Positions 3,085 through 40,952 of a stretch of 52,797 nt of DNA are shown here, in pieces. Where the stretch lies: the IMG/VR virus record IMGVR_UViG_3300023179_000145, positions 1 to 52,797 of that record, one strand, 5' to 3'. This DNA is from a virus. The position numbers and the translations under genes were made by a program. Numbering within the stretch: the stretch's first letter is position 1; each line of letters begins with the position of its first letter. The notes under the pieces were generated by a model. That model saw only the letters and a program-made list of their open reading frames with translations. It did no database searches and was not told the origin of the DNA.

Positions 3085-3088
3085 ATAC

Positions 3089-5094: not shown

Positions 5095-5140
5095 GTGAGT
5101 CCTAATTCTGTGCTGTATTTAGCCAGAATCCATCAGGCAA

Positions 5141-23353: not shown

Positions 23354-24196
23354 TCATTGCCATTGTAATTTTTCCTGAGTATAAGGATACTCAGCATCAT
23401 TATAGTAGGCCTTGCGTTTGGCCAAATGCCGCTTGCTGAATTTACAAGTGCTGGTGATATCCCAAATCTGCACATGATCTTTGTCCTCAGCTTTTCTAAT
23501 ACCACGCCCGATTGATTGAATTACTCGGGTGAAACTTTTGCCTGACTCAATCATGACCAAGTTAAAGATACGTGGTATGTTGATACCAACTGCTGCCACA
23601 CCATATGTGGCCACAATGATTTTGCCAGTGGCAGTGGCCACTTCGTCGTATTCTTCTTGGCGTTTAGCGCCTTTGGTTGCACCCGATACAAATACTGCTT
23701 GATCTCCCAATCTTGCAACTAGTTCATGCCCGGGTGCTACTCGATCTACCAGCACAAGAGTATTACCAGTTTCATTCACTTGTAAAACCAACTGGGCTAT
23801 GGCATCTAATCTGCCGGGTTCTTCCAGTAGATATTTTAGTTCTTCTTGATAAGTTTTGTGCTCTCGAATGTCTACCAACTGCACCACATTCACGTGACAC
23901 TGTGCCAATACACCACGATCTTGCAATTCACTTGCTGCTAGTTTTGAAATAACTGGTCCCAGACTTACCAACAATGCTTGGCTTTCAAATTCTTCTTTGG
24001 GAATAGTTCCGGTCAATCCCCATCTTAGGGGAATCTGACACATGGCACCCGTCAGCAGGGTCTTGAGTGCGTCGGCCTTGGCCATGTGGCAATTTGCCAC
24101 AACAGCTCCTTCAACAATATAATTATGATCATTTTCTATGTGTAAGTTGTACACTTCTGTTGGTTTGATAATTTCGGTTCGGTCAATTAGTTTCAT
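23354..24196 (-). CDS. uvsW: UvsW helicase, C-terminal piece, led by split-intein C-fragment
   Basis: The 280-aa protein has 35 residues of intein ending EGAVVAN, then Cys of the helicase DECH box (CHMAKADAL). The second RecA-like domain carries WGLTGTIP (motif III), NTLVLVDR (motif IV), VATYGVAAVGINIP (motif V) and VIQSIGRGIRK (motif VI). Splicing to 25113-26084 rebuilds VIVDE-CHMAK. UvsW remodels forks and R-loops and ends origin-type replication in T4. The start overlaps the HEG stop by 14 nt. Confidence 0.93.
   Translation of the reverse strand: MKLIDRTEIIKPTEVYNLHIENDHNYIVEGAVVANCHMAKADALKTLLTGAMCQIPLRWGLTGTIPKEEFESQALLVSLGPVISKLAASELQDRGVLAQCHVNVVQLVDIREHKTYQEELKYLLEEPGRLDAIAQLVLQVNETGNTLVLVDRVAPGHELVARLGDQAVFVSGATKGAKRQEEYDEVATATGKIIVATYGVAAVGINIPRIFNLVMIESGKSFTRVIQSIGRGIRKAEDKDHVQIWDITSTCKFSKRHLAKRKAYYNDAEYPYTQEKLQWQ
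24092..24196 (-). other. Split-intein C-fragment, UvsW intein 2 (DECH site)
   Basis: These 35 residues have block F (VYNLHIENDHNYIVEG) and end AVVAN before Cys+1. The terminal residue is Asn, but the residue before it is Ala rather than the usual His. Confidence 0.88.
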
Positions 24197-25085
24197 ATAA
24201 TGCCTTTATTTTTTTTGCTGTTTTATCGTCAAATCGATTATAATCAATATCCATAATCTGAGCTTGTAACCATTCTTTGTCAACTAATAATACAGTGTAT
24301 CTGTTATTTTTTGCCCATTCATTGAGAGCATGCATTTTTGCAGTAAACTTTTCACCCAAACATAATTCTCTCGGTTTAACTTCTATAACTTGTTTGTTAT
24401 GATGATCCACAAAGTCCACAATATACACATGATTCTCAGAATTCAGTTCATATTTTATTCTCAGTAATTCATATTCTGCAAATTCATTGATATATTGATA
24501 CAATGCCTCCCAACTCGATCTGTAGGCCGTTCCGTCTAATGTTGCATCCCAGTGTGTGTTTCTATTATTACTGTTGGGCGTAAATGTTCCGGCTAATATC
24601 TTGGATTTCATAATTTGCGATCGCATTTCTTTATCAGCATCAGACATTTTAACACCGTACATTCCATTTCCAGGGCCGGAATTTTTTAGACTGATTTTAT
24701 TTTTAACTATTTGAGTCAGATGAGCGCGAGTTCCTATGTTTTGACCCTTTGTTCCGATATTCCACGGTGTACCAGTATTGAGATTTTTTTTAATAGCATT
24801 GCCATGTTTTTTCTGTACAGCCCGGCCGCCAATGGCCGATAGCATTGCTCTAATTTCTTGTTCTGTTACATTACCACATAACAATTTGTCAATATTAGTA
24901 ACCCATAACTCTGTTTTGCTGTTTGTTATTCTCTTGACAAATCTATGTTTTTCGTTGTTGGTCAATGTGATTCCAGTTGATAGTGTTATACTATTACCAG
25001 AATAATTTGTAATACGAATCAATTGCCCGTTCTTTTTCAATATTTCATTTAATATATCTATCATTTGCTGAACAGTCTTTTTCAT
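24183..25085 (-). CDS. PD-(D/E)XK-type homing endonuclease in UvsW intein 2
   Basis: The protein is about 300 aa. The N-terminal 80 residues are a small beta domain, then a NUMOD3-like region (GPGNGMYGVKMSD, TPWNIGTKGQNIG) and WDATLDGTAYRSSWEALY. The nuclease motif is YIVDFVDHHNKQVIEVKP (Asp, then ExK), with NRYTVLLVDKEWL after it. It differs from the Vsr-like HEGs elsewhere here. The ATG at 25085 (MKKTVQQM) has an AAAGGTG element; the GTG at 25091 is an alternative. It ends 14 nt into the next piece of uvsW. Confidence 0.82.
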   Translation of the reverse strand: MKKTVQQMIDILNEILKKNGQLIRITNYSGNSITLSTGITLTNNEKHRFVKRITNSKTELWVTNIDKLLCGNVTEQEIRAMLSAIGGRAVQKKHGNAIKKNLNTGTPWNIGTKGQNIGTRAHLTQIVKNKISLKNSGPGNGMYGVKMSDADKEMRSQIMKSKILAGTFTPNSNNRNTHWDATLDGTAYRSSWEALYQYINEFAEYELLRIKYELNSENHVYIVDFVDHHNKQVIEVKPRELCLGEKFTAKMHALNEWAKNNRYTVLLVDKEWLQAQIMDIDYNRFDDKTAKKIKALYETN

Positions 25086-25112
25086 AAACACCTTTGCTTT
25101 AGTTATATGTAT

Positions 25113-26084
25113 TTATGTTTTATTTATGATTTCGTGTGCATTGGTCAATTCATCTGCTCTCACCCATCCAGTATCAGTTAGAAACTTATGATTTCCGGTG
25201 ACTAGTATTTTATTCCCATTGTCAAACTCTAGCTCATACATTTTTTCACTGGAGGATTTAGCTAAATTCACATGCTGTTTAACCACAATATCAATCTTAA
25301 ATTCTTTTGTAGTTTCAGAATAGTTGATAACTTTGTCACCTGATTTAATATCTCTAATAGGCACATATCCAGTTGGAGTTAACACCCTGCTATCTGCCGA
25401 AAAACATTCATCCACAATCACACAAACAACATCTGTCAGGAATTCCTGTATGGTACAATCACCCACACCATTCTTGGTATTCTTCATGAGATTGTTCAGG
25501 CTTTGCCACGTGCATATGGTATGACTACGACCATATTCTTTTCTATCTCCGAAGTACACGCCTACATCCAACTCCATGTTGATATAATCTTTTTCTGTTT
25601 GTGTGACCAAGCTCTTGTTGGGCACAATCACAATACTGCGACCATACTTACTAACTGCGTCACTGAGTGCTGCTGTCATGATGGTGTTGTGGTGAATCAC
25701 CCCATCCATATCATAATAAAGGTGTGGCGAATCTATTCCTATATCATAAAATGTGGTATCAGGTATTTCGTAAATGGCATCTATAGTAACGTCTCCGTTG
25801 ATGGTTTCAATTTTTTCACCCACACATAAATCAAAAGCAAAAACGTCCCTGCCATTCTGTCGCAGAATATGCTTAGTGGCACACTTAATTTCTATTCCCG
25901 TAGACGTAACCAATTTAATTCCAGAAAGATTTTCTTTCTTGATTATATGGTTAATCCGAGACGATCCTGTAGGGGTATCTATATAACAACCCAAATCTGC
26001 TATATCGATCTCTTGATTGTGCTGTAGTTTTATATTTTTATACTCCTCTACTGCCGTTGCCAATTGTCCAATACTAATCTTCAT
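25113..26084 (-). CDS. uvsW: UvsW helicase, middle piece, flanked by halves of two different split inteins
   Basis: The 323-aa protein has residues 1-133 as the C-fragment of intein 1 (ending VIHHN), 134-226 as helicase (TIMTAALSDAV, SIVIVPNKSLV, HTICTWQSL, CVIVDE), and 227-323 as the N-fragment of intein 2 (from CFSADSRVL). Only about 93 residues remain after both splicing steps, covering the region from Walker A Thr to the DE of motif II. Its start overlaps the HEG stop by 11 nt (ATGAAGATTAG). Confidence 0.92.
   Translation of the reverse strand: MKISIGQLATAVEEYKNIKLQHNQEIDIADLGCYIDTPTGSSRINHIIKKENLSGIKLVTSTGIEIKCATKHILRQNGRDVFAFDLCVGEKIETINGDVTIDAIYEIPDTTFYDIGIDSPHLYYDMDGVIHHNTIMTAALSDAVSKYGRSIVIVPNKSLVTQTEKDYINMELDVGVYFGDRKEYGRSHTICTWQSLNNLMKNTKNGVGDCTIQEFLTDVVCVIVDECFSADSRVLTPTGYVPIRDIKSGDKVINYSETTKEFKIDIVVKQHVNLAKSSSEKMYELEFDNGNKILVTGNHKFLTDTGWVRADELTNAHEIINKT
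25116..25406 (-). other. Split-intein N-fragment, UvsW intein 2 (DECH site)
   Basis: These 97 residues begin CFSADSRVLTPTGYVPI (block A) and include NGNKILVTGNHKFLT (block B with TxxH) and VRADELTNAHEI. It is a standard split length. Confidence 0.9.
25686..26084 (-). other. Long split-intein C-fragment, UvsW intein 1 (Walker A site)
   Basis: These 133 residues hold block B (GIEIKCATKHIL), FDLCVGEKI, block F (FYDIGIDSPHLYYDMDG) and the end VIHHN before Thr+1. Its N-partner has only 28 residues, so the split is near the N-terminus, as in the atypical AceL-TerL intein. Confidence 0.85.
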
Positions 26085-27093
26085 TTAAAAACTTTCTACA
26101 TTTGTTAATGATTTCATCAGGGTTTTCTCTGTAATCCTTTTCTGAGATACGTAATATCGTAAATCCGGCTGCTTCCAAATCCCTCATTTTTCTTTGATCC
26201 TGTTCCCATATTTCAGCAACCGGTCTATTTCGAAGTATATCGGTTGCTTTATACAAAGCAGGATTGGCATGCCAATAATCGCCATCAAATTCAATTATTT
26301 TTCGAGTTTCAGAATCGTAATAATCAATGCGATATGTTTTTGATTTACCACGCACAGTAGTTTCATCGTCTCCGTATCTACCTTTACCGCCAACAGCATT
26401 GAATAATTCAGTTGAGACTTTGCTAATACCCAAAGTTAGCTTCGACATCTTGTTGAGCCATTTTTCTATCCTGGTGTTATACTTCAACGTACCGTCAACT
26501 TCTCCGTACTTCTCTATATACCAACTTAGCCCATTTGTAACTTGCATCTCTGCTACTTTCTGACACGCATTGGCATCTGAATATCCTTTTTTAATCCAAT
26601 ATTCTTTAGTTCTAACAGAAAATCCACGAGCACCTTTTTTTGAAGCCGGGGACTTTGCTGATCGAGTTTGTTGAATTGCTGATACCTTTTTGTTTGCCTC
26701 TTCTTTGGTAAAGCCAGCTGCTAACCAAAATTGCCGATTATTTGTAAATTTTCTTGTTTTGTGCTTTGAAAATGTTGTTAAAATATGATTGGCTTCATCT
26801 TGAGAAAATAATGTAGTTAACTTCTGCACCGTAGCATAGTTCTTACTGTCGGCAGAACATCCACAAGTGTTCACAATAAACTCGTTTTTACGAAACCCGA
26901 CGGGCAATGTCAAATGACATTTTAAGCAGTGTCTAGACTGAACTTCAAACTTGTTAAGTCCACTGTATGGCATATAATATACCTTATCTCCGTTGAATTG
27001 TATCAAATCCCATATGTCTAAATCAAGATTTTTTCTTGAGATCATCGAAGACCACATTTTTCTTTGGTATTTTTTAATAAATTCTTGTAACAT
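26074..27093 (-). CDS. Vsr-like (EDxHD-type) homing endonuclease in UvsW intein 1
   Basis: The 339-aa protein has an N-terminal zinc site (HCLKCHLTLP...NTCGCSAD), then repeated helical units with FWLAAGFTKEEANKKV and YWIKKGYSDANACQKV, likely DNA-recognition modules. The nuclease core is YRIDYYDSETRKIIEFDGDYWHANP, with EIWEQDQRKM and GFTILRISEKDY. An AGGAG Shine-Dalgarno lies between the upstream stop (27111) and its ATG. It ends 11 nt into the next uvsW piece. Confidence 0.9.
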   Translation of the reverse strand: MLQEFIKKYQRKMWSSMISRKNLDLDIWDLIQFNGDKVYYMPYSGLNKFEVQSRHCLKCHLTLPVGFRKNEFIVNTCGCSADSKNYATVQKLTTLFSQDEANHILTTFSKHKTRKFTNNRQFWLAAGFTKEEANKKVSAIQQTRSAKSPASKKGARGFSVRTKEYWIKKGYSDANACQKVAEMQVTNGLSWYIEKYGEVDGTLKYNTRIEKWLNKMSKLTLGISKVSTELFNAVGGKGRYGDDETTVRGKSKTYRIDYYDSETRKIIEFDGDYWHANPALYKATDILRNRPVAEIWEQDQRKMRDLEAAGFTILRISEKDYRENPDEIINKCRKFLNED

Positions 27094-27110
27094 AGTTTTT
27101 GCTCCTGTAG

Positions 27111-27641
27111 CTATTTTCTATATTTATTTATTAAAAATCCTCCAAAACTTGAGTTTTCGGATACTGCGATATTAAGCAGGGTGTCAAATGTAACACACTT
27201 ACCCGCTCCAGTGGCCACTTCTTGTAGACACTGTGGGTTGGCTAGAAAATTGTTGATGATTTCTACTTGATAATCACGCAGCTCAATAGGCTTGCCTGCC
27301 AGTGGGTGTTTAACAGGCCAGATCTTGTGGGCATAAGTCTGTTCGTGTACTTGATCAAACTCAAATGTGGTTGTGTATGCGCGTTGATCATCCAGCTCAA
27401 CATCATAATTATGTTTGTCTAGTATGGGCAAGATCTCTGGCAATAGATTCACATAGGTGCTGCCGCTCAGTTGAAAGTATGCTACCTTGCCGTCCCAACG
27501 GCCAAGTCTCACTGCTGGCAGATAACGTGCGTAAGGTACATCGTATTTGAATTTTTTTACCAGATCTCGTCGAGTGTCAAGATCTAGCCCTTCAATTTTG
27601 ATATTGACTTCGTCACTTAGTTTAATTGTGCATTTTTTCAT
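27111..27641 (-). CDS. uvsW: UvsW helicase, N-terminal piece, ending in very short intein N-fragment
   Basis: The protein is 176 aa from the ATG at 27641 (MKKCTIKLSDEVNIKIEGLD); a longer frame would run through the terminator and promoter. It holds the UvsW N-terminal domain (ARYLPAVRLGRWDGKVAYF), the Q-motif region (IELRDYQVEII) and the start of Walker A (EVATGAGK). The last 28 residues are intein. Spliced UvsW would be about 486 aa, close to T4 UvsW (503 aa as I recall). An early-type promoter lies directly upstream. Confidence 0.93.
   Translation of the reverse strand: MKKCTIKLSDEVNIKIEGLDLDTRRDLVKKFKYDVPYARYLPAVRLGRWDGKVAYFQLSGSTYVNLLPEILPILDKHNYDVELDDQRAYTTTFEFDQVHEQTYAHKIWPVKHPLAGKPIELRDYQVEIINNFLANPQCLQEVATGAGKCVTFDTLLNIAVSENSSFGGFLINKYRK
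27114..27197 (-). other. Very short split-intein N-fragment, UvsW intein 1 (Walker A site)
   Basis: These 28 residues start CVTFDTLLNIAV right after GAGK, with the C-x-x-x-D-T pattern of block A, and stop after FLINKYRK. Block B is on the other fragment. Confidence 0.82.
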
Positions 27642-30013: not shown

Positions 30014-30832
30014 TTAGCGCCAGTGTTTTTTTATTACAACATCTGTAGTCTCGTGCGGTTTAGGATCTCCATGGAATACCAACACACTATTGTTGGGTTG
30101 TAATACTGTGCCTCGTCCTGGTCGGTTGTAGGTTCTATTTGTGAAATTCATACCGCCGTCTAGTGCAGTCCACCGCCAACTTACAATTCGATCTGAATCC
30201 ATAAATCGACGTTTTTCTGGAGCAATAACTGTTGTGAGATATTCCTGATCACCGCCGTGGTGATATCTGCTGATTATTTTGCTGGCTCCGTGCTGTTCAA
30301 AATTTGACCACACATGAGACCATTTGGTAGTGTCCCAATACATTACAGATGAGTTCATATTTTGTATATCTGGTTTCCATAGCACTCTGAAATCTCGTAT
30401 GGTCCAAAAATAAAACGGGCTAAGGCCCACAATCCAATCTATGTTGTCAACAATCACTGTGTCTAAGTCAAAGTACAACAATTGCCCAGAATGGTGCACT
30501 GGATTGAACATTTGCATTTTGTACCACCAGCTGCGTTTGCGACCACTTATGCCTGTCCATTCTGTCAAATCATGTTTGATCATATGCGGTGGCACCGGCC
30601 GGCTGGGTTCTGTATACACATGCAATCTCACACCACGAGTCAGATGGCGACTCAACATGCTGTGTAATTTTTCTACATAGACCCAGTCATAACCTGAGCC
30701 ATGAATAACGCAGGCACAATCAACAGGTCCTGTTGGGTCTGACACTGTGGGAGCTATATATCCTGGTAGTTTTTTTGCCCGATGTGCTTGTCTCTCAGCA
30801 CGATGCAGATCTTTTTCACGTTGGGTAGCCAC
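30014..30832 (-). CDS. Glycosyltransferase, GT8/GT-A-like
   Basis: The 272-aa protein has a basic N-terminus, then a GT-A fold with the DxD motif in LLYFDLDTVIVDNIDW (near 120). MNSSVMYWDTTKW and HGGDQEYLTTVI, typical of family 8-like enzymes, follow, and a terminal LVFHGDPKPHE. It likely transfers a sugar from a nucleotide sugar. It follows the GT17-like gene with a 2-nt gap, in an operon with two methyltransferases. The acceptor is unknown. Confidence 0.85.
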   Translation of the reverse strand: MATQREKDLHRAERQAHRAKKLPGYIAPTVSDPTGPVDCACVIHGSGYDWVYVEKLHSMLSRHLTRGVRLHVYTEPSRPVPPHMIKHDLTEWTGISGRKRSWWYKMQMFNPVHHSGQLLYFDLDTVIVDNIDWIVGLSPFYFWTIRDFRVLWKPDIQNMNSSVMYWDTTKWSHVWSNFEQHGASKIISRYHHGGDQEYLTTVIAPEKRRFMDSDRIVSWRWTALDGGMNFTNRTYNRPGRGTVLQPNNSVLVFHGDPKPHETTDVVIKKHWR

Positions 30833-30834
30833 GA

Positions 30835-31620
30835 TTATACCGGTGGATTATTCCAATATTCTGGATATTGTTTCAGTATACGTTGTACTGCTTCGGGATA
30901 AATGATGTTTATAGTGTGTGTGGTACATTTATGATTAATTGCAGATATAGTGTCCAGCTGTTTAAATGCTGACAATATTTGTTCAGGGTCTCTGTGTTGA
31001 CTTTCTATGCAACTTACTACTTTATTACGTATAAGATCATCGGTGCCCATCCAGGTCCAATGCCACCCCACTGGAGTTTTTAGCCCCACGCAATGACTAC
31101 GGTCTTTGCGTTTGATGTTTTTTCCTTTGTACAGTTCGTGCGGGGTATCAAACATCCTACGACGTGCTACTACACTTCCTTGCCATCCACGTTCAGCACG
31201 TTGATCAAACTTATACATAAACATTTCAAATCCACAGCTGACTGGACAATCATGATGATTCATCAATGCAATGATATCTGCCCAGCATTCAGGATTGATT
31301 ATCTCGTCGAGATCGCCGTGAATCACAATGTCTTCTGTTGAATATTCTGCCAGCGCAGGTGCAATAGCCTGACGCATCATTGTTTCGCACACAAGGTTAA
31401 TCTGATGTTCTTGTAATTCTAATGTGACAACTTGAATCCTATCTCCATATAGTTTTTGATAACGATCAAGATTGTTTAACAGATTGTAAGGTTTTGCTAT
31501 GCCACTGAAAGTTCTGCTGGCCTCTAGTACCACCCATCGATCTACATAATGGTCGGTGATTGCTAGATGTATATCCAGCATGTCAAACTCGTTGTTGAAT
31601 AACAGTGTATCAATTACCAT
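30835..31620 (-). CDS. Glycosyltransferase family 17-like
   Basis: The 261-aa protein opens DTLLFNNEFDMLDIHLA, then VVLEASRTFSGIAKPYNL and IVIHGDLDEIINPE (DxDE metal motif), GFEMFMYKFD and GWHWTWMG. These are GT17 features (beta-1,4-N-acetylglucosaminyltransferase family). Short phage and bacterial members usually act in cell surface glycans. It shares an operon with the neighbours on both sides. Confidence 0.87.
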   Translation of the reverse strand: MVIDTLLFNNEFDMLDIHLAITDHYVDRWVVLEASRTFSGIAKPYNLLNNLDRYQKLYGDRIQVVTLELQEHQINLVCETMMRQAIAPALAEYSTEDIVIHGDLDEIINPECWADIIALMNHHDCPVSCGFEMFMYKFDQRAERGWQGSVVARRRMFDTPHELYKGKNIKRKDRSHCVGLKTPVGWHWTWMGTDDLIRNKVVSCIESQHRDPEQILSAFKQLDTISAINHKCTTHTINIIYPEAVQRILKQYPEYWNNPPV

Positions 31621-31622
31621 GG

Positions 31623-32258
31623 TTAAAATTTATAAATGATCTGGTAAGCATCATACAAAGGTTTGATTCCTTTTGCGTCTAAGTAGTCTGCTATATAATG
31701 GCCTTTTCCAGTACGAGAGTTGGAGTCTAAAAATCTGCTGTTGTCATCTATTACTACCAGAGCACCTGGTTTAAGATGTGGTTCAATTATTTGAAATTCC
31801 ATTAAATGATGCATAGCACTATCGTGATCATTATGCCATTTTACATCGTAACTGTCAAGGTAAAAAAGATCAACGTTGTTCAAATCTAATTGTGTAGCCA
31901 AATATAATACACTATCCATACATGTAGATTCAAAACTGTCAGAGGTGATTGCGTCGCGAGCAGCAGCCACAGCTTCTGGATCTATATCTACACTACGCAC
32001 ACTACCACCATGATGATCCACAAATTCTGTAAACAATCTAGCACTTTGCCCATCTTTCCAATTACCTGGATTTCTCAGTGTGCCAGTTTCGATGATATGA
32101 TATTCAGACTGATCAAGACTTTCAAGATATGAAAACACAAGATTAAATCCTTCAGCACGTTGATATAGTCCTTCTATCAACCCTCGTTTGGCACCACTCA
32201 CTTGGGGAGTTAACAAGTGATAATAGTTATTGCGATAATGTTCGATCCAGGTAGTCAT
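31623..32258 (-). CDS. Class I SAM-dependent methyltransferase
   Basis: The 211-aa protein has motif I IIETGTLRNPGNWKDGQSA, motif II VRSVDIDPEAVAAAR, and DLFYLDSYDVKWHND followed by LKPGALVVIDDNS. It belongs to the methyltransferase-24 type, often found beside glycosyltransferases for sugar methylation. A TTTAAATA late-like box lies 4 nt before its ATG. Confidence 0.83.
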   Translation of the reverse strand: MTTWIEHYRNNYYHLLTPQVSGAKRGLIEGLYQRAEGFNLVFSYLESLDQSEYHIIETGTLRNPGNWKDGQSARLFTEFVDHHGGSVRSVDIDPEAVAAARDAITSDSFESTCMDSVLYLATQLDLNNVDLFYLDSYDVKWHNDHDSAMHHLMEFQIIEPHLKPGALVVIDDNSRFLDSNSRTGKGHYIADYLDAKGIKPLYDAYQIIYKF

Positions 32259-32265
32259 GTGTTAT

Positions 32266-32847
32266 TTAAATTGAATTACTGTGAGCAAATGGTTTTGTTA
32301 TTATCCAGCAACGCCCTGATCTGCTGACTTTGATATCTTGCGGGCCAAAGAAATCCCACACTGCTTGTTGCACACCCGGATATCCTTTGGTATAATCATC
32401 ACCAGCAAATCTAGATCCAGGTCTCAATTTTGGCCACCAAGCCGCAAGATCACTAGCAACGGCTTCATAACTATGCCCAGCATCTACATAACAAAAATCT
32501 ATAGATTGGTCTTTGAAATTATCAGCAGCCTGCCAACTGATCTCACTCAACATTGTTATCTGTTCCATCACTGGAGTTAGATTTTGGCAGAAAATGTTTT
32601 TGAGGTCTTGTACAACATCAACATCATACGCAATCGACTCTTCCCCTTTCCATGTATCTACACAATAGAATGGGCCTAGCTTGTTACGGTTGATCAGTTC
32701 TACTACACAATATGCAGCACTTCGGCCAGTCCAGGATCCTAATTCGACCCACGTGCCACCTGGCGGAAATTGATCTAATACTATATCAAGCATTATAGTA
32801 TTTTTGTGGCTCATAAATCCTTTGATGTTTTGATAGAAGTGATCCAT
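32266..32847 (-). CDS. Class I SAM-dependent methyltransferase
   Basis: The 193-aa protein has TWVELGSWTGRSAAYCV (motif I), FYCVDTWKGEE (acidic motif II) and SIDFCYVDAGHSYEAVASD, then LRPGSRFAGDDYTKGYPGV. The DAGHSYE pattern fits methyltransferase-24 proteins acting on sugars. A GGTAAATA late-like box is 4 nt before its ATG. It is the first gene of the leftward glycan operon; the rightward one starts across the gap. Confidence 0.84.
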   Translation of the reverse strand: MDHFYQNIKGFMSHKNTIMLDIVLDQFPPGGTWVELGSWTGRSAAYCVVELINRNKLGPFYCVDTWKGEESIAYDVDVVQDLKNIFCQNLTPVMEQITMLSEISWQAADNFKDQSIDFCYVDAGHSYEAVASDLAAWWPKLRPGSRFAGDDYTKGYPGVQQAVWDFFGPQDIKVSRSGRCWIITKPFAHSNSI

Positions 32848-32871
32848 TTTTTATTTACCGTTATATACGCC

Positions 32872-32879
32872 GATAAATA
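32872..32879 (+). promoter_or_regulatory. Late promoter octamer GATAAATA
   Basis: GATAAATA is 5 nt before the ATG of the stub at 32885. It is probably the original promoter of the cytidylyltransferase gene and now also reads the HNH gene. Confidence 0.6.
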
Positions 32880-32884
32880 TTTCT

Positions 32885-32935
32885 ATGAAAATTGTAATTG
32901 TAACTGGGGGATTTGACCCCAGATTGTATAAATGA
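32885..32935 (+). pseudogene. 5' stub of the cytidylyltransferase gene left by HNH insertion
   Basis: This 16-codon frame reads MKIVIVTGGFDPRLYK and stops. The intact gene at 33641 starts MKIVLCTGGFDPCHSG. Ten of the first twelve residues match, and the DNA also matches closely over codons 1-4 and 8-11. The stub then runs into the ribosome site of the HNH gene. It is either the old 5' end cut off by insertion or a leftover of a previous allele. Confidence 0.82.
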
Positions 32936-32951
32936 ACATACAGGAGGAAGT

Positions 32952-33644
32952 ATGTTTATAGATAACAAATACTCAAAATGCTACTACAATCTCATTGAGC
33001 ATAGAAAAAATAATCCGTTTGACGGATATGTTGAGCAGCATCACATTGTCCCAAAAAGTCTCGGTGGCAGCAATAAAAAAGAAAATATTGTCGCCTTAAC
33101 TGCAAGAGAACATTTTATCTGCCACAGGCTCTTGGTTAAAATGACCAGCGGAAGAAACAAGATGAAGATGTCTTATGCTGTCAGATGTTTGATCAATCGA
33201 GAAAATGCATACCAACAGCGTTACAAAATCAGTTCTCGAACCTATGCTGCAATAATCTTAACTACAAGAAACAGTATTTCCAAATACCAAACTGGAGAAA
33301 ATAATCCATACTATGGAAAAATCCACTCTGAGGAAGTTAGAGCTAAGATGAGAGCCAAACGGGCATTACAAATTATGCCAACTCGAAAAGGAAAAGTGTA
33401 TTCGGAGGAATCGTTAAAGCTATGGCGAGAAGATAATAAAAAACAATTTGAAGATCCAGCTCAAATTGAGATGCGTAAAACACATACGTTGGAGCAAATG
33501 AAAGATCCTAGCCGCCGTTTTGCGGCTGGCAATGGCAAACGCGGAAAAAAATGGTATTATTGCCCTGTAACAAAAAAATGCTCTACATTTTTTCCAGACA
33601 CAGTTCCGCCAGGATATATAGAAGGAAGGATTATTAAAAAATGA
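32952..33644 (+). CDS. HNH homing endonuclease inserted at the start of the cytidylyltransferase gene
   Basis: The 230-aa protein begins at the ATG 4 nt after a perfect AGGAGG (32942-32947). HNH core: EQHHIVPKSLGGSNKKENIV, LTAREHFICHRLL. The middle has the NUMOD3-like GENNPYYGKIHSEEVRAKM and further Lys-rich repeats, and the end GKRGKKWYYCPVTKKCSTFF. It stops in the ATGA of the next gene, giving coupled translation of the target. It is a close relative of the HNH genes at 489 and 28164. Confidence 0.9.
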   Translation: MFIDNKYSKCYYNLIEHRKNNPFDGYVEQHHIVPKSLGGSNKKENIVALTAREHFICHRLLVKMTSGRNKMKMSYAVRCLINRENAYQQRYKISSRTYAAIILTTRNSISKYQTGENNPYYGKIHSEEVRAKMRAKRALQIMPTRKGKVYSEESLKLWREDNKKQFEDPAQIEMRKTHTLEQMKDPSRRFAAGNGKRGKKWYYCPVTKKCSTFFPDTVPPGYIEGRIIKK

Positions 33645-34399
33645 AAATTGTACTCTGCACCGGGGGATTCGATCCATGCCACTCTGGACATATCTCCTAT
33701 CTAGCAGCAGCCCGCCAACTTGGTGATCGGCTGGTAGTGGGAGTAAATTCTGACGCATGGTTAAGCCGTAAAAAAGGTCGACCGTTTATGCCTGCAGTTG
33801 AGCGTGTGGCAGTGATAGAAAATCTACGCATGGTAGATTGCTGTATCCTGTTCAATGACGATGATGGTTCAGGAATTGAAGCCATTCGTGCTGTACAAAG
33901 CATGTATCCCAATGCAGAAATAATCTTTGCCAATGGTGGTGATCGCACAAAAGAAAACATACCCGAAATGGTGTTTGACGATGTGGAGTTTGTGTTTGGG
34001 GTCGGCGGATCAAACAAGGCCAACAGCTCAAGCTGGATTCTTGAAGAATGGAAGAAACCCAAGACTGAACGCACCTGGGGATATTATCGTGTATTACATG
34101 AAGTTGGCTCACATGTAAAACTCAAAGAACTCACCGTGATGCCTGGGCAACGACTCAGTATGCAACGTCATGAAAAACGTGCTGAGTTTTGGTTTGTGGC
34201 CGAAGGTGAAGCCACAGTGTACACCGTGGATCCACACAGTACCGACCGGGAGTTGCTGGCCAGCCCTGCACGGCATCAACACACTTGGATTCGACTAGGA
34301 GAATGGCATCAGCTATGCAACGAAACTGATCAAATACTTAAACTGATCGAAATTCAGTATGGTGAAGATTGTGTAGAAGAAGACATTGAACGCAAATGA
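33641..34399 (+). CDS. Cytidylyltransferase (HldE-C/RfaE-like) fused to a sugar-isomerase-type cupin
   Basis: The 252-aa protein has an N-terminal nucleotidyltransferase (residues 1-130): CTGGFDPCHSGHISYL with the HxGH motif, LVVGVNSDAWLSRKKGRPFMP. The C-terminal cupin (140-252), WGYYRVLHEVGSHVKLKELT, MPGQRLSMQRHEKRAEFWFV, WHQLCNETDQILKLIEIQ, resembles the type II phosphomannose isomerase cupin. It probably activates a sugar phosphate with a nucleotide. Its first bases repeat the stub at 32885; the HNH gene stop overlaps by ATGA. Confidence 0.88.
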   Translation: MKIVLCTGGFDPCHSGHISYLAAARQLGDRLVVGVNSDAWLSRKKGRPFMPAVERVAVIENLRMVDCCILFNDDDGSGIEAIRAVQSMYPNAEIIFANGGDRTKENIPEMVFDDVEFVFGVGGSNKANSSSWILEEWKKPKTERTWGYYRVLHEVGSHVKLKELTVMPGQRLSMQRHEKRAEFWFVAEGEATVYTVDPHSTDRELLASPARHQHTWIRLGEWHQLCNETDQILKLIEIQYGEDCVEEDIERK

Positions 34400-35088
34400 T
34401 GGACATCATACCAGTGTTTGTAGGGTACGACCCTAGAGAAGCAATAGCATTTCATGTATGCACCAACAGCATAATCAGAAATGCCAGCAGACCTGTTAGT
34501 ATTATTCCATTAGCATTGAATTTGTTCAAAGACTACAAGGAAACACACACCGATGGTAGTAATCAATTTATCTACTCAAGATTCTTAGTACCGCATTTGA
34601 TGAGATATAATGGTCATGCTATCTTTATAGATGGTGACATGATTGTGCGCGGTGACATTGCTGAGTTATGGGATTTACGAAATGCCTGGCAAGATGTGCA
34701 AGTGGTCAAGCACGATTATAAAACACGCATGGCCGAAAAGTATCTCGGCAGCAAAAACGAAAACTATCCACGCAAGAACTGGAGCAGTGTGATGTTGTGG
34801 AACTGTAACAGTTATCCTAATCGCAAGCTCACTCCTGAATTCATTGAAAAATCCACAGGTGCGGAGTTACATAGATTTACCTGGCTCGACGATGAGCGCA
34901 TAGGGGAGTTACCTGCTGAATGGAACTGGTTAGATATAGAATACGATTACAATCCTTTGGCAAAACTTGTTCACTATACATTAGGCACACCTTGTTTTCA
35001 CGAGTTTGCTGCCCAAGGTGACTTCTCAAGCGAATGGCATAAAGAACGCATCTTTACAGAATACTGTCAACAAAGAATGGTTGTCTGA
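34396..35088 (+). CDS. Glycosyltransferase, GT8-like
   Basis: The 230-aa protein begins IPVFVGYDPREAIAFHVC, with FIYSRFLVPHLM and the DxD motif in AIFIDGDMIVRGDIAELWDL. Later parts are WSSVMLWNCNSYP and VHYTLGTPCFHEF, as in family 8-like transferases. It overlaps the preceding gene by 4 nt and the next by 1 nt, so it is part of a tightly coupled glycan operon. Confidence 0.87.
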   Translation: MMDIIPVFVGYDPREAIAFHVCTNSIIRNASRPVSIIPLALNLFKDYKETHTDGSNQFIYSRFLVPHLMRYNGHAIFIDGDMIVRGDIAELWDLRNAWQDVQVVKHDYKTRMAEKYLGSKNENYPRKNWSSVMLWNCNSYPNRKLTPEFIEKSTGAELHRFTWLDDERIGELPAEWNWLDIEYDYNPLAKLVHYTLGTPCFHEFAAQGDFSSEWHKERIFTEYCQQRMVV

Positions 35089-35762
35089 TGATAGGAAGTA
35101 ACAACTTCAACATAGATTGTTTACATTCGGCACAGATCATCAACTGCAAGAACAAAAGTAAACGTGTGCAGCGTAGTAATCATTTAACTCATGCACTACG
35201 CACTATCAACATAACTGGGCACGTGATGGAATTTGGAGTATATCAGGGCAACACACTGAAAATTATTTCTGATTATTTTTCTAATCAAACTGTGTGGGGG
35301 TTTGATAGTTTTGAAGGATTACCCGAACCTTGGTTTTTGAAATCAAAAGTTGGTTCCCGGCGCTCGCAGCATCCTGTGGGGAAATTTGCTCTAGGCCAAG
35401 AGGAACTACAGGTTGTTGTGAATCAGTTTGCAAAAAGAAAAGTAAAACTTGTGCCTGGATGGTTTAATCAGACTATAGGGCCTTGGATGAATGATAATCC
35501 TGGAGTAGTGTCATTTTTACATATAGATTGTGATCTATACAGCAGCACACTAGATATATTAAATTTGTTAAATGATCGCATTGTTCCTGGCTTTGTGATA
35601 GTGTTTGATGAGATGTATCCTTGGAATGATGTTGAACAATACGATCTTTGGGAGCAAGGCAAATTCCGAGCATTAGGCGAATGGATCAGCAATCATCAAC
35701 GTACTTTTCGTACGTTATATCGCAGCGAACATCAACAATGTAGCATTGAGGTAATGTCATGA
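35088..35762 (+). CDS. TylF-like class I methyltransferase
   Basis: The 224-aa protein has GHVMEFGVYQGNTLKIIS (motif I), VWGFDSFEGLPEPW (typical of TylF/macrocin O-methyltransferase relatives), FLHIDCDLYSSTLDIL (metal-binding Asp) and GFVIVFDEMYPW. It likely O-methylates a sugar. It overlaps both neighbours by 1-4 nt. Confidence 0.87.
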   Translation: MIGSNNFNIDCLHSAQIINCKNKSKRVQRSNHLTHALRTINITGHVMEFGVYQGNTLKIISDYFSNQTVWGFDSFEGLPEPWFLKSKVGSRRSQHPVGKFALGQEELQVVVNQFAKRKVKLVPGWFNQTIGPWMNDNPGVVSFLHIDCDLYSSTLDILNLLNDRIVPGFVIVFDEMYPWNDVEQYDLWEQGKFRALGEWISNHQRTFRTLYRSEHQQCSIEVMS

Positions 35763-36571
35763 GCGGATGGATTTTTCTTAGCAAAGGCGGCAAGGACGAG
35801 TATGTGAACATGCTGGCCCATAGTGCAAAAATGCAACCAACAGATTCAGATTACTTTGATTATCATTATGATGTTGCAGTAGATCATAATCAGCTGGTGC
35901 TACGTGGCATTCTCAAACACAAGATTATGAAACAATGTCTGGCCGATGGCAACAATTTTTATTACATAGATTCAGGGTATGTTGGAAATAATGTAGGTGA
36001 TTTAAATAGGCAAGGTATTAAACAATATCACAGGATAGTGTTGAATGATTTACAACATCGTGTTATAAAACCCAGACCCAGTGATCGCTGGGATATGCTA
36101 GGTGTCAAAATACATCCAAGACGATCAGGTAATAAGATCATTGTGGCGGCACCAGATGAAAAACCTTGCAAATATTACGGCATTGATCAACAACAATGGA
36201 TAGCCGATACTGTAATGGAGATCAAAAAGCACACTGATCGTCCTGTGATAGTGCGTGAACGTGCTCCTAAAAGAGCAGATAGAGTATTTAAAGAACCATT
36301 AAGTCATGTGCTTACACAAGATGTGCATGCCTTGGTTACATTTAATAGTATAGCAGCGGTAGAAAGTATACTGGCAGGTGTTCCTGCGTTTGTGTTAGCG
36401 CCAAGTCATGTGGCAGAACCTGTGGCCAATCGAGATTTATCCAAGATAGAAGATGTGTTCTATCCAGACAACGACTTGTTAATGGCCTGGTGTCACAGTA
36501 TGGCATACGGGCAATATCATGTACGTGAGTTAAAGAATGGAACAGCATTTCGAATGATGCAAGAACTATGA
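35759..36571 (+). CDS. Capsule-polysaccharide-synthesis-like protein, paralogue 1
   Basis: The 270-aa protein opens MSGWIFLSKGGKDEYVNML. The C-terminal half has HTDRPVIVRERAPKRAD and VTFNSIAAVESILAGVPAFVL, with APSHVAEPVANRD, the pattern of GT-B-like capsule synthesis (Kdo-transferase-like) proteins. The genes at 36568 and 39132 share this plan. Its exact sugar is unknown. Confidence 0.78.
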   Translation: MSGWIFLSKGGKDEYVNMLAHSAKMQPTDSDYFDYHYDVAVDHNQLVLRGILKHKIMKQCLADGNNFYYIDSGYVGNNVGDLNRQGIKQYHRIVLNDLQHRVIKPRPSDRWDMLGVKIHPRRSGNKIIVAAPDEKPCKYYGIDQQQWIADTVMEIKKHTDRPVIVRERAPKRADRVFKEPLSHVLTQDVHALVTFNSIAAVESILAGVPAFVLAPSHVAEPVANRDLSKIEDVFYPDNDLLMAWCHSMAYGQYHVRELKNGTAFRMMQEL

Positions 36572-37533
36572 GAGTAATCAGTTACACCGCCACATTGCCT
36601 AAAAAAGAGCAATACACTCCGGAGAGTTTGAAAAACGCCACAGACAAAGTTAACACATTAACTTATTTTTCGCAAGGGGTAAATGCACAAGGTGACCAGG
36701 GTATTGTTGAAACCAACATGACTTATCAACCCAGCGAAGTAGCTGTGATTCTAGGCTGGGTGCATGAACATGGTAAGACTGCTGCACATCTACAATTCCG
36801 CCAAGAGATCCTGGATGGGCAACGTGCAACCGGCGGCAGAACTGTTATAGCAGACAGTAATCTGTTTTTGTACAAGAACAAAGATAATCCCGGATATTGG
36901 TTGCGTTATAGTTATGATGGCATTTTTGCCAATACTGGTGAATACTGTGATCAGTCACCAGATCCTGCTAGGTGGGCAATGATACAAGCACAATGTGGAG
37001 TTCAACTGCAACCTTGGCGGCATACAGGTAACCATATCTTAATTTGTTTACAACGTGATGGTGGGTGGAGCATGGGTGGATGGAATGTGATAGACTGGGC
37101 ATTAAAAACCATAATTGACATACGTAAGTATAGTGATCGGCCAATACGTATCAGACCTCACCCTGGAGACAAGAAGGCTAGAAAATATTGTGAAAGATTA
37201 ATGAAATTATGCCAAGGCCGAGGATTAAAAGAACTAGGAATCAGTATACAAGGTCATAGTCTGGTGGATGATCTTACCGACTGCTGGGTGGTAGTAAATC
37301 ACAACTCCAGTCCAGGTGTGGCAGCAGTGATTCAGGGCATTCCTGTGATATTAACTGACCCGCTACACAGTCAAGCACATGATGTGGCCACAGTGGGCAT
37401 ACACTGTGTGGAAAATCCACTCATGCCTGACAGAACCAATTGGATACAGCGCATCAGTCAATTTCATTGGAGTCACGAAGAGTTACGCACAGGAGTATGC
37501 TGGGAACACATGCGGAAATGGGCAATAAAATGA
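36568..37533 (+). CDS. Capsule-polysaccharide-synthesis-like protein, paralogue 2
   Basis: The 321-aa protein is the longest of three related proteins. It has YSDRPIRIRPHPGDKKARKY, WVVVNHNSSPGVAAVIQGIP, VILTDPLHSQAHDVA and a terminal NPLMPDRTNWIQRIS, HWSHEELRTG. The N-terminal half has ADSNLFLYKNKDNPGYWLRY. It overlaps the upstream gene by ATGA and the next gene by ATGA. Confidence 0.8.
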   Translation: MRVISYTATLPKKEQYTPESLKNATDKVNTLTYFSQGVNAQGDQGIVETNMTYQPSEVAVILGWVHEHGKTAAHLQFRQEILDGQRATGGRTVIADSNLFLYKNKDNPGYWLRYSYDGIFANTGEYCDQSPDPARWAMIQAQCGVQLQPWRHTGNHILICLQRDGGWSMGGWNVIDWALKTIIDIRKYSDRPIRIRPHPGDKKARKYCERLMKLCQGRGLKELGISIQGHSLVDDLTDCWVVVNHNSSPGVAAVIQGIPVILTDPLHSQAHDVATVGIHCVENPLMPDRTNWIQRISQFHWSHEELRTGVCWEHMRKWAIK

Positions 37534-38279
37534 TACAAGTAATAACCAGTTTCAATCAACTTTACTACGACCTCATTGGCAAGGATTCAGTAGACAGTTT
37601 CTTAGAGCATTGGCCTAAAGATCTCAAACTGAGTTGTTACGTAGAAGGATTTGAAATGCCCGCACATGAACGCGTCAATCAAATTGATTTTTCACAGTTA
37701 GAGGCAGATTACTTTCAATATCAGTTGGATACAACATTAAATCAAAGCATGAAAAAGTTTGCCAAGAAAGCATATAGTTTTATCCATGCCATGGATAATG
37801 CCAGTGCCAACTGGATAGTATGGTTAGATGCTGATGTTATCACCACACAATCTTTGCCTGTAGAATTATTACAAAGAGTATTACGCCCTGATCATCTAGC
37901 CATGTATATGGGTGTAACATATTTCACAGATAAAAGTGGTAATCCTGGTACTTGGTTAGTTCCTGAAACTGGAATATTTGCTGTGAATACTCAGCATGCG
38001 GATTTTGCCACCTTTAGAGCAGAGTATTGTCGTCGGTATCGAGAACGTGACTATGCAGATCTACGCAGATTTTATGATAATGATGTGTTTGGTGCTGCAT
38101 TATCAGTTGTGCCCACTGCTGCTGCACTGGATCTATGTGCAGGATTTAAAAAAGGATACAAAACCCCATTGCGGCATACTGTGTTAGGTGATCATCTCAT
38201 ACACTACAAAGCCAAGCACTCCAAGGCTGAATATGTGCAAGGCGATGTTGATGGCATCTGCGTAACTGACAACGACTAG
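37530..38279 (+). CDS. Glycosyltransferase (GT-A-like), paralogue of 38276-39100
   Basis: The 249-aa protein starts MIQVITSFNQLYYDLIGK in the ATGA overlap; a longer frame lies inside the upstream gene. It has FLEHWPKDLKLSCYVEGF, KKAYSFIHAMDN and the metal motif WIVWLDADVITTQSLP, then ETGIFAVNTQHADF. Its partner gene on the opposite strand shares the same start pattern (TTFNQAGYDKY, FLKSWPREVDLYVYTE). Confidence 0.82.
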   Translation: MIQVITSFNQLYYDLIGKDSVDSFLEHWPKDLKLSCYVEGFEMPAHERVNQIDFSQLEADYFQYQLDTTLNQSMKKFAKKAYSFIHAMDNASANWIVWLDADVITTQSLPVELLQRVLRPDHLAMYMGVTYFTDKSGNPGTWLVPETGIFAVNTQHADFATFRAEYCRRYRERDYADLRRFYDNDVFGAALSVVPTAAALDLCAGFKKGYKTPLRHTVLGDHLIHYKAKHSKAEYVQGDVDGICVTDND

Positions 38280-39100
38280 GTGGTCCAATAAGGTTCGCGC
38301 CTAGGACGTACTAGATCTCCGGGCAGGCTACGTCCAGTGGCTTTTCTGTTTCCTTTAAGGTGATCCAAGTATGCACCCCATGCAGTGTTAATCAGTGGAT
38401 GGCCTTCACCTTGAATTAATCCTTGGCTCCAATTTAATACTTTCCATTCAGGATGTGCAGCTTTTACTTCTTTACGGGTTTCGTCAAATACCCAGCAATC
38501 GTTCCACTCGGCCATGGTCATAAGTCGGCCTGAATCATATGCCAGCTGAAACTCAGAAAGCCATAATTTGGTGATAGGATTGTTTAAATTCATGCCATAT
38601 AACCCACATTCGCTAAACTTTTTCTCTCGTCCCAAGTAAGCTAGCCCTACATCTGCAGGCATCTGTAATAGTAAAAATGCTTCATTGATTCTGGTATGAC
38701 ATACCATATCGGCATCCATCCAAAATAGCACATCAGCTTTGCAGTTGGCCGCAGCATGAAATACAGAATAGGCTTTGTGGCTGAATCGTATTGCATCCCA
38801 ACGGAATCCAATACCCGGGGCTTTGCCTTTTTTATCTACAGGACCTGTTGCTACTTGGCCTCGGGCTCTAGGATCAGCCCCCCACCGTTGCTTGAACGCA
38901 ACAATCTCTGGACTTAGTGCATGTAGATCTCTCACATGTAAATTAGAAGCTGATTGTGTAATTTCACAATCTTCAGTATACACATAGAGATCAACTTCTC
39001 TTGGCCAACTTTTTAAAAAAGTATCAATCATCCGGCTAGCATATTTGTCGTACCCTGCCTGATTGAATGTAGTTACTACTGCATATTTTGTCATGATCAT
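38276..39100 (-). CDS. Glycosyltransferase (GT-A-like), convergent paralogue
   Basis: The 274-aa protein has YAVVTTFNQAGYDKYASRMI, RFSHKAYSVFHAAANCKADV, LFWMDADMVCHTRINEAFLL (DxD) and ECGLYGMNLNNP. The end VRPRREPYWTT is basic. It converges on the paralogue 37530-38279 with a 4-nt overlap of stop codons, which suggests duplication with inversion. Confidence 0.83.
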   Translation of the reverse strand: MIMTKYAVVTTFNQAGYDKYASRMIDTFLKSWPREVDLYVYTEDCEITQSASNLHVRDLHALSPEIVAFKQRWGADPRARGQVATGPVDKKGKAPGIGFRWDAIRFSHKAYSVFHAAANCKADVLFWMDADMVCHTRINEAFLLLQMPADVGLAYLGREKKFSECGLYGMNLNNPITKLWLSEFQLAYDSGRLMTMAEWNDCWVFDETRKEVKAAHPEWKVLNWSQGLIQGEGHPLINTAWGAYLDHLKGNRKATGRSLPGDLVRPRREPYWTT

Positions 39101-39131
39101 CCAGTTCTGAATAACTATTTAATACAATATC

Positions 39132-39974
39132 ATGAACATCAGTATTTTTAGTAAATTTGGGGCACTGAACTCTGGGCCAGTATTTGAAGCATTTCGTAAT
39201 GGTTGTAAAAAACATCGTATACGTGTATCTGAACATAACATGTCAGCAGACGTGGCAGTAATCTGGAGTCAACTGTGGGCTGGGCGTATGGCTCCTAATC
39301 GAGCGGTGTGGAACGAGTTCACTGCATCCGGACGTCCAGTGATTGTGCTAGAAGTAGGACAATTGAATCGTGGTGTGACTTGGAAAATGGGTATTAATGG
39401 TGTAAACGCTCGTGGATGGTTTGGTGAAGGAATTGAGCCAGGGCGAGCAAAAAAACTAGCAGTTCAATTATATCCATGGCATCAAGGAGATCATATCCTA
39501 ATAGCTATGCAACGTAGTGACAGTGAGCAATGGAACGGAATGCCACCTGCACAACAATGGTTAGACCAGACCATTGCCCGGATACGTGAGCACACTGATC
39601 GTGCTATTGTGGTTAGACCGCATCCTAGGCAAAAACTACAACCAAAGATGGGTATTAAGTTTCAAACACCATTGGCATTGCGTGGGACGTACGATGAATT
39701 TGATTTTAGATCTAACTTAAACAATGCATGGGCAGTGGTCAATGAAAACTCTGGGCCCGGCAGTCAAGCTATATTAGATGGTGTACCAGCATTTGTAGGT
39801 GTGGACTCAATGGCAGCGCCGGTGGCCAATCAAGACTATGCTCTAATAGAAAAACCACACATGCCTGATAGAGCAGTGTGGTTGAATAATCTATGTCATA
39901 CAGAGTGGACCTTGGGCGAGATCACTACTGGAAGACCAATAGAGAGATTACTTAGTAGATTGCAATCTAGCTAA
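39132..39974 (+). CDS. Capsule-polysaccharide-synthesis-like protein, paralogue 3
   Basis: The 280-aa protein starts MNISIFSKFGALNSGPVFEA. It has HTDRAIVVRPHPRQKLQPKM, WAVVNENSGPGSQAILDGVP, AFVGVDSMAAPVANQDYALI and HMPDRAVWLNNLCHTEWTLG. The order of motifs matches paralogues 1 and 2. It overlaps the end of gmd on the opposite strand by 27 nt. Confidence 0.8.
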   Translation: MNISIFSKFGALNSGPVFEAFRNGCKKHRIRVSEHNMSADVAVIWSQLWAGRMAPNRAVWNEFTASGRPVIVLEVGQLNRGVTWKMGINGVNARGWFGEGIEPGRAKKLAVQLYPWHQGDHILIAMQRSDSEQWNGMPPAQQWLDQTIARIREHTDRAIVVRPHPRQKLQPKMGIKFQTPLALRGTYDEFDFRSNLNNAWAVVNENSGPGSQAILDGVPAFVGVDSMAAPVANQDYALIEKPHMPDRAVWLNNLCHTEWTLGEITTGRPIERLLSRLQSS

Positions 39975-40928
39975 ATCAGCATCTACCATACTTCGTATCA
40001 TGGTGGCAAAATCAGTACGTGGTTTCCATCCTAGTATTTCTCTGGCCGAAGTTGAATCTCCGCATAAACTGTAAAGTTCAGCAGGGCGTTTGAATCTAGG
40101 ATCAGATTTGATCATAGCTTGCCAATCAGTGATGCCTGCATGGCGGAATGCAATATCGCATAAATCCCCGATACTGTGTTGTTCACCGGTGGAAATAACA
40201 TAGTCTCTAGCTTCAGGCTGTTGCAACATCAGCCACATGGCTTCTACAAAGTCGCCAGCGAAGCCCCAGTCACGACGTGAATCAAGATTACCTAATGTAA
40301 TAGATTTTTCTAGGCCTAGCTTGATGCGGGCAACTCCGTCAGTTACTTTGCGTGTGACAAACTCACGACCACGCAATGGACTTTCGTGATTGAACAAAAT
40401 ACCCGAACAAGCATATAGACTGTAGCTTTCACGGAAGTTTATAGTCATCCAATGGCTGTACAGTTTACTAACTCCGTACGGACTGCGAGGGCGAAATGGC
40501 GTTAGTTCGCCTTGTTGCCCGGCTTCGGTAGCATTACCAAACATCTCACTTGTGCTGGCTTGATAAAATCGTGTGTTAGGTGCATGACTGCGAATTGCAT
40601 TTAGCAAATTTAACGCACCAAGTGAGTTTACTTCAGTTGTGAGCTTGTTGAGATCCCAACTTGCTCCTACAAAACTCTGTGCTGCAAGATTATATACTTC
40701 TGCAGGTCTAAGAGTTTGCATGAGATGGTTCATGTTGTTTTCATCGGTGATATCGCCGGTGACCAGCTCAATGTCATCCTCTATACCTAACCACTTGATA
40801 TTTTCCAAGTTTGGGTTAGAATAGCGTTTTATCAGGCCATACACATGATAGCCTTTTTCAACCAATAGCTTGGCCAAATATGGGCCGTCTTGGCCGGTCA
40901 TTCCTGTTATAAATGCAGTGCGTTTCAT
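39948..40928 (-). CDS. gmd: GDP-mannose 4,6-dehydratase
   Basis: The 326-aa enzyme (from ATG at 40928, MKRTAFITG) turns GDP-mannose into GDP-4-keto-6-deoxymannose, the precursor of fucose, rhamnose and related sugars. It has the NAD(P)-binding ITGMTGQDGPYLAKLL, NLAAQSFVGASW, the Thr/Ser and Glu of YQASTSEMFGN, the YxxxK of SPYGVSKLYSHW, and NHESPLRGREFVTRK. It is full length for the family. It feeds the transferases to its left; no fucose synthase (fcl) is seen in the window. Confidence 0.95.
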   Translation of the reverse strand: MKRTAFITGMTGQDGPYLAKLLVEKGYHVYGLIKRYSNPNLENIKWLGIEDDIELVTGDITDENNMNHLMQTLRPAEVYNLAAQSFVGASWDLNKLTTEVNSLGALNLLNAIRSHAPNTRFYQASTSEMFGNATEAGQQGELTPFRPRSPYGVSKLYSHWMTINFRESYSLYACSGILFNHESPLRGREFVTRKVTDGVARIKLGLEKSITLGNLDSRRDWGFAGDFVEAMWLMLQQPEARDYVISTGEQHSIGDLCDIAFRHAGITDWQAMIKSDPRFKRPAELYSLCGDSTSAREILGWKPRTDFATMIRSMVDADLARLQSTK

Positions 40929-40952
40929 AACATTATGTATCACACAAAACGA

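Follow-up and report, generated by a model that had tools for sequence, protein, structure and literature searches.

We describe a phage uvsW helicase gene that is broken twice, each time by a split intein accompanied by a free-standing homing endonuclease gene (HEG). The window, i.e., the whole stretch of DNA analyzed, is the entire metagenomic IMG/VR virus record IMGVR_UViG_3300023179_000145 (52,797 bases) from a lake phage. It is probably a piece of a large T4-like phage genome, and its terminase is nearest to those of PA5oct-like jumbo phages (55%). With a probability of about 0.88, we read the locus as one UvsW (superfamily 2, SF2) helicase gene interrupted by two independently mobile fractured-gene modules, the three chains of which would be joined into a helicase by two trans-splicing reactions. 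Rather than being confined to the window, the doubly split gene was found in 14 contigs including it, the 13 others coming from 13 metagenomes.

Organization of the fractured uvsW locus

The original prediction had placed a UvsW helicase in three pieces at 23354–27641, with an N-terminal piece at 27641–27198, breaks at GAGK/T of Walker A and DE/CHMA of motif II, and a ligated product of about 486 aa containing a 93-residue middle extein. The reexamined locus agrees in each of these respects. Five open reading frames (ORFs), all on the minus strand, run from 27641 to 23354 in the order UvsW-N, HEG1, UvsW-middle, HEG2, UvsW-C. The first break (GAGK/T) lies inside Walker A and the second (VIVDE/CH) inside motif II; when joined, the exteins amount to 148 + 93 + 245 = 486 aa. 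The features are as follows, with IntN and IntC denoting the N- and C-terminal intein halves:

27111..27641, minus strand: chain N, the UvsW N-extein 27641–27198 (148 aa, ends ATGAGK) followed by IntN1 27197–27114 (28 aa, CVTFDTLLN...)
26074..27093, minus strand: HEG1, 339 aa, with Cys pairs in the N-terminal half, a C-terminal Vsr-like nuclease domain and a strong Shine–Dalgarno (SD) sequence, aggag
25113..26084, minus strand: middle chain, IntC1 26084–25686 (133 aa, ...HHN), extein 25685–25407 (93 aa, TIMTAAL...VIVDE) and IntN2 25406–25116 (97 aa, CFSADSRV...)
24183..25085, minus strand: HEG2, 300 aa, with a NUMOD3 motif and a PD-(D/E)XK-like nuclease; start at 25085 with an SD sequence
23354..24196, minus strand: chain C, IntC2 24196–24092 (35 aa, ...VVAN) followed by the C-extein 24091–23357 (245 aa, CHMAKADALK...)
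25686..27197, minus strand: mobile module 1 (IntN1–HEG1–IntC1), inserted at the Walker A codons GK/T; the site is empty in contig L011
24092..25406, minus strand: mobile module 2 (IntN2–HEG2–IntC2), inserted at motif II DE/CH; the site is empty in L085 and L095

The insertion sites of the two modules are separated by 279 bp of uvsW. Both outer chains match UvsW/SF2 helicase families: chain N matches PHROG_16259 (E 2.4e-16) and, weakly, PF21241 UvsW_N, and chain C matches PHROG_9690 (E 9.5e-53) and, above cut-off, Helicase_C. The middle chain matches ResIII. The profile search against intein families that the original prediction had proposed returned Intein_splicing PF14890 (43.6 bits) and TIGR01445 (45.9 bits) in the middle chain and TIGR01443 intein_Cterm in chain C, all above cut-off.

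Because the ORFs are closely spaced, SD-like sequences precede HEG1 and HEG2, and the middle and C chains each start in overlap with a HEG stop codon, the five ORFs are likely translated as a coupled operon. The hallmarks of a fractured gene were found at uvsW, namely gene pieces carrying intein halves, a free-standing HEG in each gap, insertion at conserved motifs and the existence of intein-free alleles. Group I or II introns were considered at the breaks and rejected; the window has no Rfam match, and the intein halves account for the breaks.

Two different split inteins

As originally proposed, the two split inteins are different: they are cut at different places and show no detectable mutual similarity (alignment z 0.8). 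Intein 1 is split into 28 and 133 aa near its N-terminus, an atypical arrangement, and intein 2 into 97 and 35 aa at the canonical place. The lack of similarity is important, since IntC–extein–IntN is the order of the middle chain and one that cyclises a peptide if the halves match. One intein split at different sites cross-reacts, while most different inteins do so negligibly (PMC7090010).

The residues required for splicing are retained in both elements. Intein 1 keeps C1, the block-B His, the YDI of block F, HHN and Thr+1, and intein 2 keeps C1, TxxH, block F, Asn and Cys+1; the set is complete in all 14 doubly split contigs, the window counted. Occupied junctions are invariably N/T at site 1 and N/C at site 2 (86/86). 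In alleles with an empty site 2, the +1 residue is Val (11), Cys (7) or Ala (4).

The best PDB match of the IntC1 profile is VidaL (E 4.1e-11). A one-piece relative of intein 1, in contig L055, was predicted as a Hint domain (predicted local distance difference test, pLDDT, 94) and matched RadA, VidaL and other inteins. Its C half is 39% identical to IntC1 of the window, and its model contains a low-confidence stretch at about residues 31–40, the point at which other alleles are split. Intein 1 is thus predicted to adopt the Hint fold on the model of this relative, and the same fold is assigned to intein 2 from the above-cut-off matches to PF14890 and TIGR01445. The IntN of atypically split inteins is about 15–25 aa long (PMC12707363), so that of intein 1 is slightly longer; in other alleles it measures 25–55 aa. 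Among the genome contigs searched, no bacterial relatives of IntC1 were confirmed.

The two endonuclease genes

A separate HEG in each gap, from different families, had been expected, and the matches agree with this. HEG1 matches DUF559 above cut-off, as well as MTES_1575, and the fold of its model matches Vsr (1vsr, 1cw0) and I-Bth0305I (3r3p) with probabilities of 0.99–1 and E values of 8e-3 to 5e-2, at a whole-model predicted template modelling score (pTM) of just 0.37. Vsr-like endonucleases are one of the families known from fractured genes. HEG2 matches TnsA-like PD-(D/E)XK (E 4e-4) and NUMOD3 (E 0.085), both below the Pfam cut-off, and has strong PHROG matches (PHROG_22417, E 3e-41; the endonuclease family PHROG_15427, E 5.5e-22). 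The two HEGs are assigned to different families by their profile and fold matches. Neither has a sequence relative in the PDB.

Relatives of these HEGs occur in cultured phages, among other places directly upstream of an intein-1-like IntC in uvsX of PA5oct-like phages and beside the terminases of T4-like phages. Elsewhere in the window, a gene that by eye resembles the iron-sulfur scaffold IscU (7329–6946, minus strand) has an HNH-like ORF on one side and an endonuclease gene on the other (7723–7319 and 6934–6176); this endonuclease gene belongs to the same PHROG as HEG1, phrog_22677.

Recurrence and allele states

About 130 loci were collected in two IMG/VR scans, and exteins and intein halves were placed in each by tblastn; as the queries were the middle chain and IntC1, the counts of allele states are skewed by them and are not frequencies. 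Both HEGs are present in 10 of the 14 doubly split contigs, HEG2 is missing from three and HEG1 from one. Because all 14 carry both splits with full catalytic residues, a chance arrangement is excluded. Three incomplete contigs (L005, L039, L094) also have a split site 1, with IntN2 sequence following the middle extein.

The remaining loci display a range of states. The commonest, which the search favored, combines an empty site 1 with a split site 2, and the reverse, a split site 1 with an empty site 2, was found as well. Intein 1 is in one piece, with site 2 empty, in L055 and L056, and in L127 both inteins are in one piece within a single ORF. Six contigs (L087, L088, L091, L092, L093, L128) have an in-frame fusion of IntN1 and HEG1, so that a 403-aa tail follows GAGK, and a separate IntC1; this state is intermediate between the one-piece and three-gene arrangements. 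Three further loci (L084, L089, L099) are split and have no HEG1 match. Four contigs (L051, L052, L059, L077) carry a large one-piece intein at the Walker A site beside split intein 2; it is about 360–370 aa long, differs from intein 1 and is, by eye, apparently of LAGLIDADG type.

On the extein tree, the minimum number of changes was 11 for site 1 occupancy, 10 for site 2 occupancy and five for the doubly split state; the tree leaves recombination out, so these counts are approximate. In the IntC1 tree, the one-piece form of L055 branches within the split forms (moderate support), a hint that it may derive from a secondary fusion.

Mobility and selection

Natural allele pairs show site 2 with and without an insertion. 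L095 and L009 are 99.0–99.4% identical and differ solely by a 423-nt one-piece intein 2. L085, with an empty site 2, and L086, with a split intein 2 and HEG2, share 99.2% identity as far as site 2 and 81% past it. Between the window and L011, the synonymous divergence (dS) is 0.87–1.37 in the N and middle exteins and 0.10 across module 2, and identity in the middle extein climbs from 83 to 95% toward site 2, as co-conversion would give.

The comparison of L086 with L087 in 60-nt bins, the clearest of the pairs, bears on both modules at once: identity is 95–100% in module 1 and 91–100% in module 2, against 72–82% in the middle extein and 58–93% in the outer exteins. Correspondingly, dS is 0–0.02 for HEG1 and IntC1, 0.13–0.17 for module 2 and 1.4–1.8 for the exteins. 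Since the elements are near-identical and the exteins around and between them are diverged, both modules have, by these comparisons, been mobile recently and separately. The window and L004 show the opposite pattern, with exteins 93–95% identical and module 1 only 38–46%; site 1 was therefore invaded or replaced independently. This fits observations in archaea, where double inteins arise mostly through invasion of an allele that is already occupied by one intein (PMC10643990).

Both the window and L004 are doubly fractured, and the ratio of nonsynonymous to synonymous divergence (dN/dS) between them is 0.04, 0.04 and 0.06 for the three exteins, which for practical purposes excludes a dead uvsW gene. 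The inteins are themselves mostly under purifying selection, with dN/dS near 0.1 where measurable.

Proposed mechanism and alternative explanations

We propose that the three helicase chains are translated, probably from a single operon in which the starts are coupled. Pairing of IntN1 (28 aa) with IntC1 (133 aa) would then join GAGK to TIMT and so restore Walker A, and pairing of IntN2 (97 aa) with IntC2 (35 aa) would join VDE to CHMA and so restore motif II. A single 486-aa helicase would thus result from the two trans-splicing reactions. Mispairing should be prevented by the lack of detectable similarity between the inteins and by the different places at which the Hint fold is cut. Each HEG would cut its own empty site and so spread its own module into intein-free alleles.

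Several points weigh against this reading. At its penultimate position, intein 2 has Ala, and most of its relatives Ser, in place of His; such a replacement is tolerated in DnaE inteins. IntN1 is just 28 aa long, and its pairing was modelled on the one-piece relative only. The HEG1 structure model is poor overall, HEG2 passes no Pfam cut-off, and the occupancy changes come from a tree blind to recombination. The making of the three chains, their pairing, trans-splicing and orthogonality, and HEG cleavage at empty sites are steps that we infer.

Among the alternatives, the one that survives best, although we regard it as improbable, is that the gene functions in pieces without splicing: the chains would fold into one non-covalent complex in which the intein halves only provide docking tails, an arrangement reported for NrdA of phage Aeh1. 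T4-like phages provide a precedent in their functional split NrdA and gene 43 (PMC2988022), and NrdA of the window is likewise in two pieces whose tails look like an eroded intein. These NrdA tails, however, lack the splice residues, whereas UvsW keeps all of them in every doubly split contig, which argues that UvsW uses splicing and not docking. The purifying selection on the inteins points the same way, and breaks within Walker A and motif II would be poor spots for a permanent gap.

We consider it less probable again that a single intein splices, the other junction being held non-covalently or the intermediates serving another job. The occurrence of single-fracture states at each site means that each intein may have been selected alone, but the doubly split genomes keep all catalytic residues of both, and no allele with one intein eroded and the other intact was found among the 14 contigs. 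Finally, although the window is a metagenomic virus record and probably a fragment, mis-joined contigs or a decaying gene can be set aside as most improbable of all: assembly artefact is ruled out by the recurrence of the architecture in the 13 further contigs and by natural allele pairs whose flanks are 99% identical, evidence that also answers the concern of the original prediction that the pieces might be joined in the true genome, and a pseudogene by an extein dN/dS of 0.03–0.06.

In the favored reading, with two trans-splicing reactions, the locus would have wider implications, which we hold with somewhat better than even confidence. UvsW would be a natural protein made from three chains through two mutually orthogonal split inteins, and the double state would have arisen repeatedly by separate homing. 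Short-IntN split inteins would interconvert with one-piece ones as a HEG is gained or lost in a surface loop, as suggested by alleles with a one-piece mini-intein, an IntN–HEG fusion, and a split with or without HEG.

Other fractured genes and neighboring genes

NrdA of the window is encoded in two pieces (3084–1561 and 505–2, minus strand) with conserved non-NrdA tails. The tail of the N piece (...DDEGEFKLYLDDGQEITLPGQHRVLL...) looks like the block-B region of an intein that lacks Cys1 (Pfam Intein_splicing positions 51–92 are matched at E 0.15–0.27 only). The C piece begins MKIIKKETIR..., which looks like the start of an IntC that has neither block F/G nor Asn. Both tails recur at 75–77% identity around different HEGs in L137 (2387–5581) and L138 (525–3857); a search for the NrdA tail in cultured phages gave a marginal match only. 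By analogy with the NrdA in pieces of Aeh1, the tails may be what is left of a split intein, retained for docking.

A DnaB-like helicase at 16375–13113 (minus strand) is also fractured, its N part being followed by an IntN (CLTLDT..., 112 aa) and its C part carrying an IntC that ends LTHN/SAVEE. The HEG in this gap (15147–13657) has a Mom-like domain and belongs to phrog_3339. The DnaB-like helicase and UvsW together would bring the split inteins expressed by the phage to three or more. Farther along, 30014–40943 holds a long run of ORFs on both strands in which glycosyltransferases, methyltransferases and a sugar-nucleotide epimerase/dehydratase were recognized by eye, apparently a surface-glycan cassette.

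Relation to known systems and significance

Fractured genes, as Dassa et al. reportedly described them in 2009 (cited in PMC10448857 and PMC6892783), are host genes cut by split intein halves, with a free-standing HEG in the gap. The uvsW of the window differs in having two cuts, made by inteins that are unrelated to each other and accompanied by equally unrelated HEGs. Intein 1 shares its short IntN and long IntC with atypically split inteins such as VidaL (6vgv); AceL-TerL is another of this kind. Unlike the VidaL kind, it sits in UvsW, and its relatives include a one-piece form, an IntN–HEG fusion and HEG-less splits.

In GenBank, UvsW of Salmonella phage S16 and Proteus phage PM2 has the same site-2 fracture with a related HEG2, as a single fracture with site 1 intact; the annotations list two helicases and a hypothetical protein, leaving the fracture unremarked. 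The gp41-like helicase of Vibrio phage vB_VmeM-32 (L136) carries an intein-1-like IntC ending HHN/TGKS at Walker A, with a HEG-looking separate ORF upstream, although the host gene is another one and the fracture single. In L136, positions 1–1703 and 2038–5113 hold a uvsX fractured with a SegG-like HEG and the fractured gp41-like helicase, and neither is called a split intein in the annotation examined. The short-IntN, VidaL-like nature of intein 1, the site-2 fracture in GenBank phages and the recurrence of the double state all go beyond the original prediction.

Haloarchaeal MCM resembles uvsW in having two neighboring, independently homing inteins in one gene, but each of these inteins is in one piece and brings its own nuclease domain, and no trans-splicing is involved; co-homing was reported to be inefficient in archaea (PMC10643990). 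In engineered three-segment tandem trans-splicing, two orthogonal split inteins join chains made in the laboratory (PMC12707363, PMC7090010), and the uvsW of the window is apparently a natural counterpart. Precedents exist for genes fractured once, for atypical split inteins, for one-piece inteins in pairs and for engineered three-segment splicing. In the literature searched, we found no naturally doubly fractured gene, no natural protein built through two trans-splicing reactions and no UvsW split intein, though Dassa 2009 may contain a precedent.

Together, our results suggest a three-segment assembly in a phage, recurring across metagenomes, that appears to match what protein chemists have built with two orthogonal split inteins. 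The system makes three questions testable: how cross-pairing and cyclisation are avoided with an IntC and an IntN on one chain, how split inteins originate and revert, and whether two neighboring homing elements can enter the same gene and leave it functional. New natural split inteins are gained as well, together with two HEGs whose empty-site alleles are defined.

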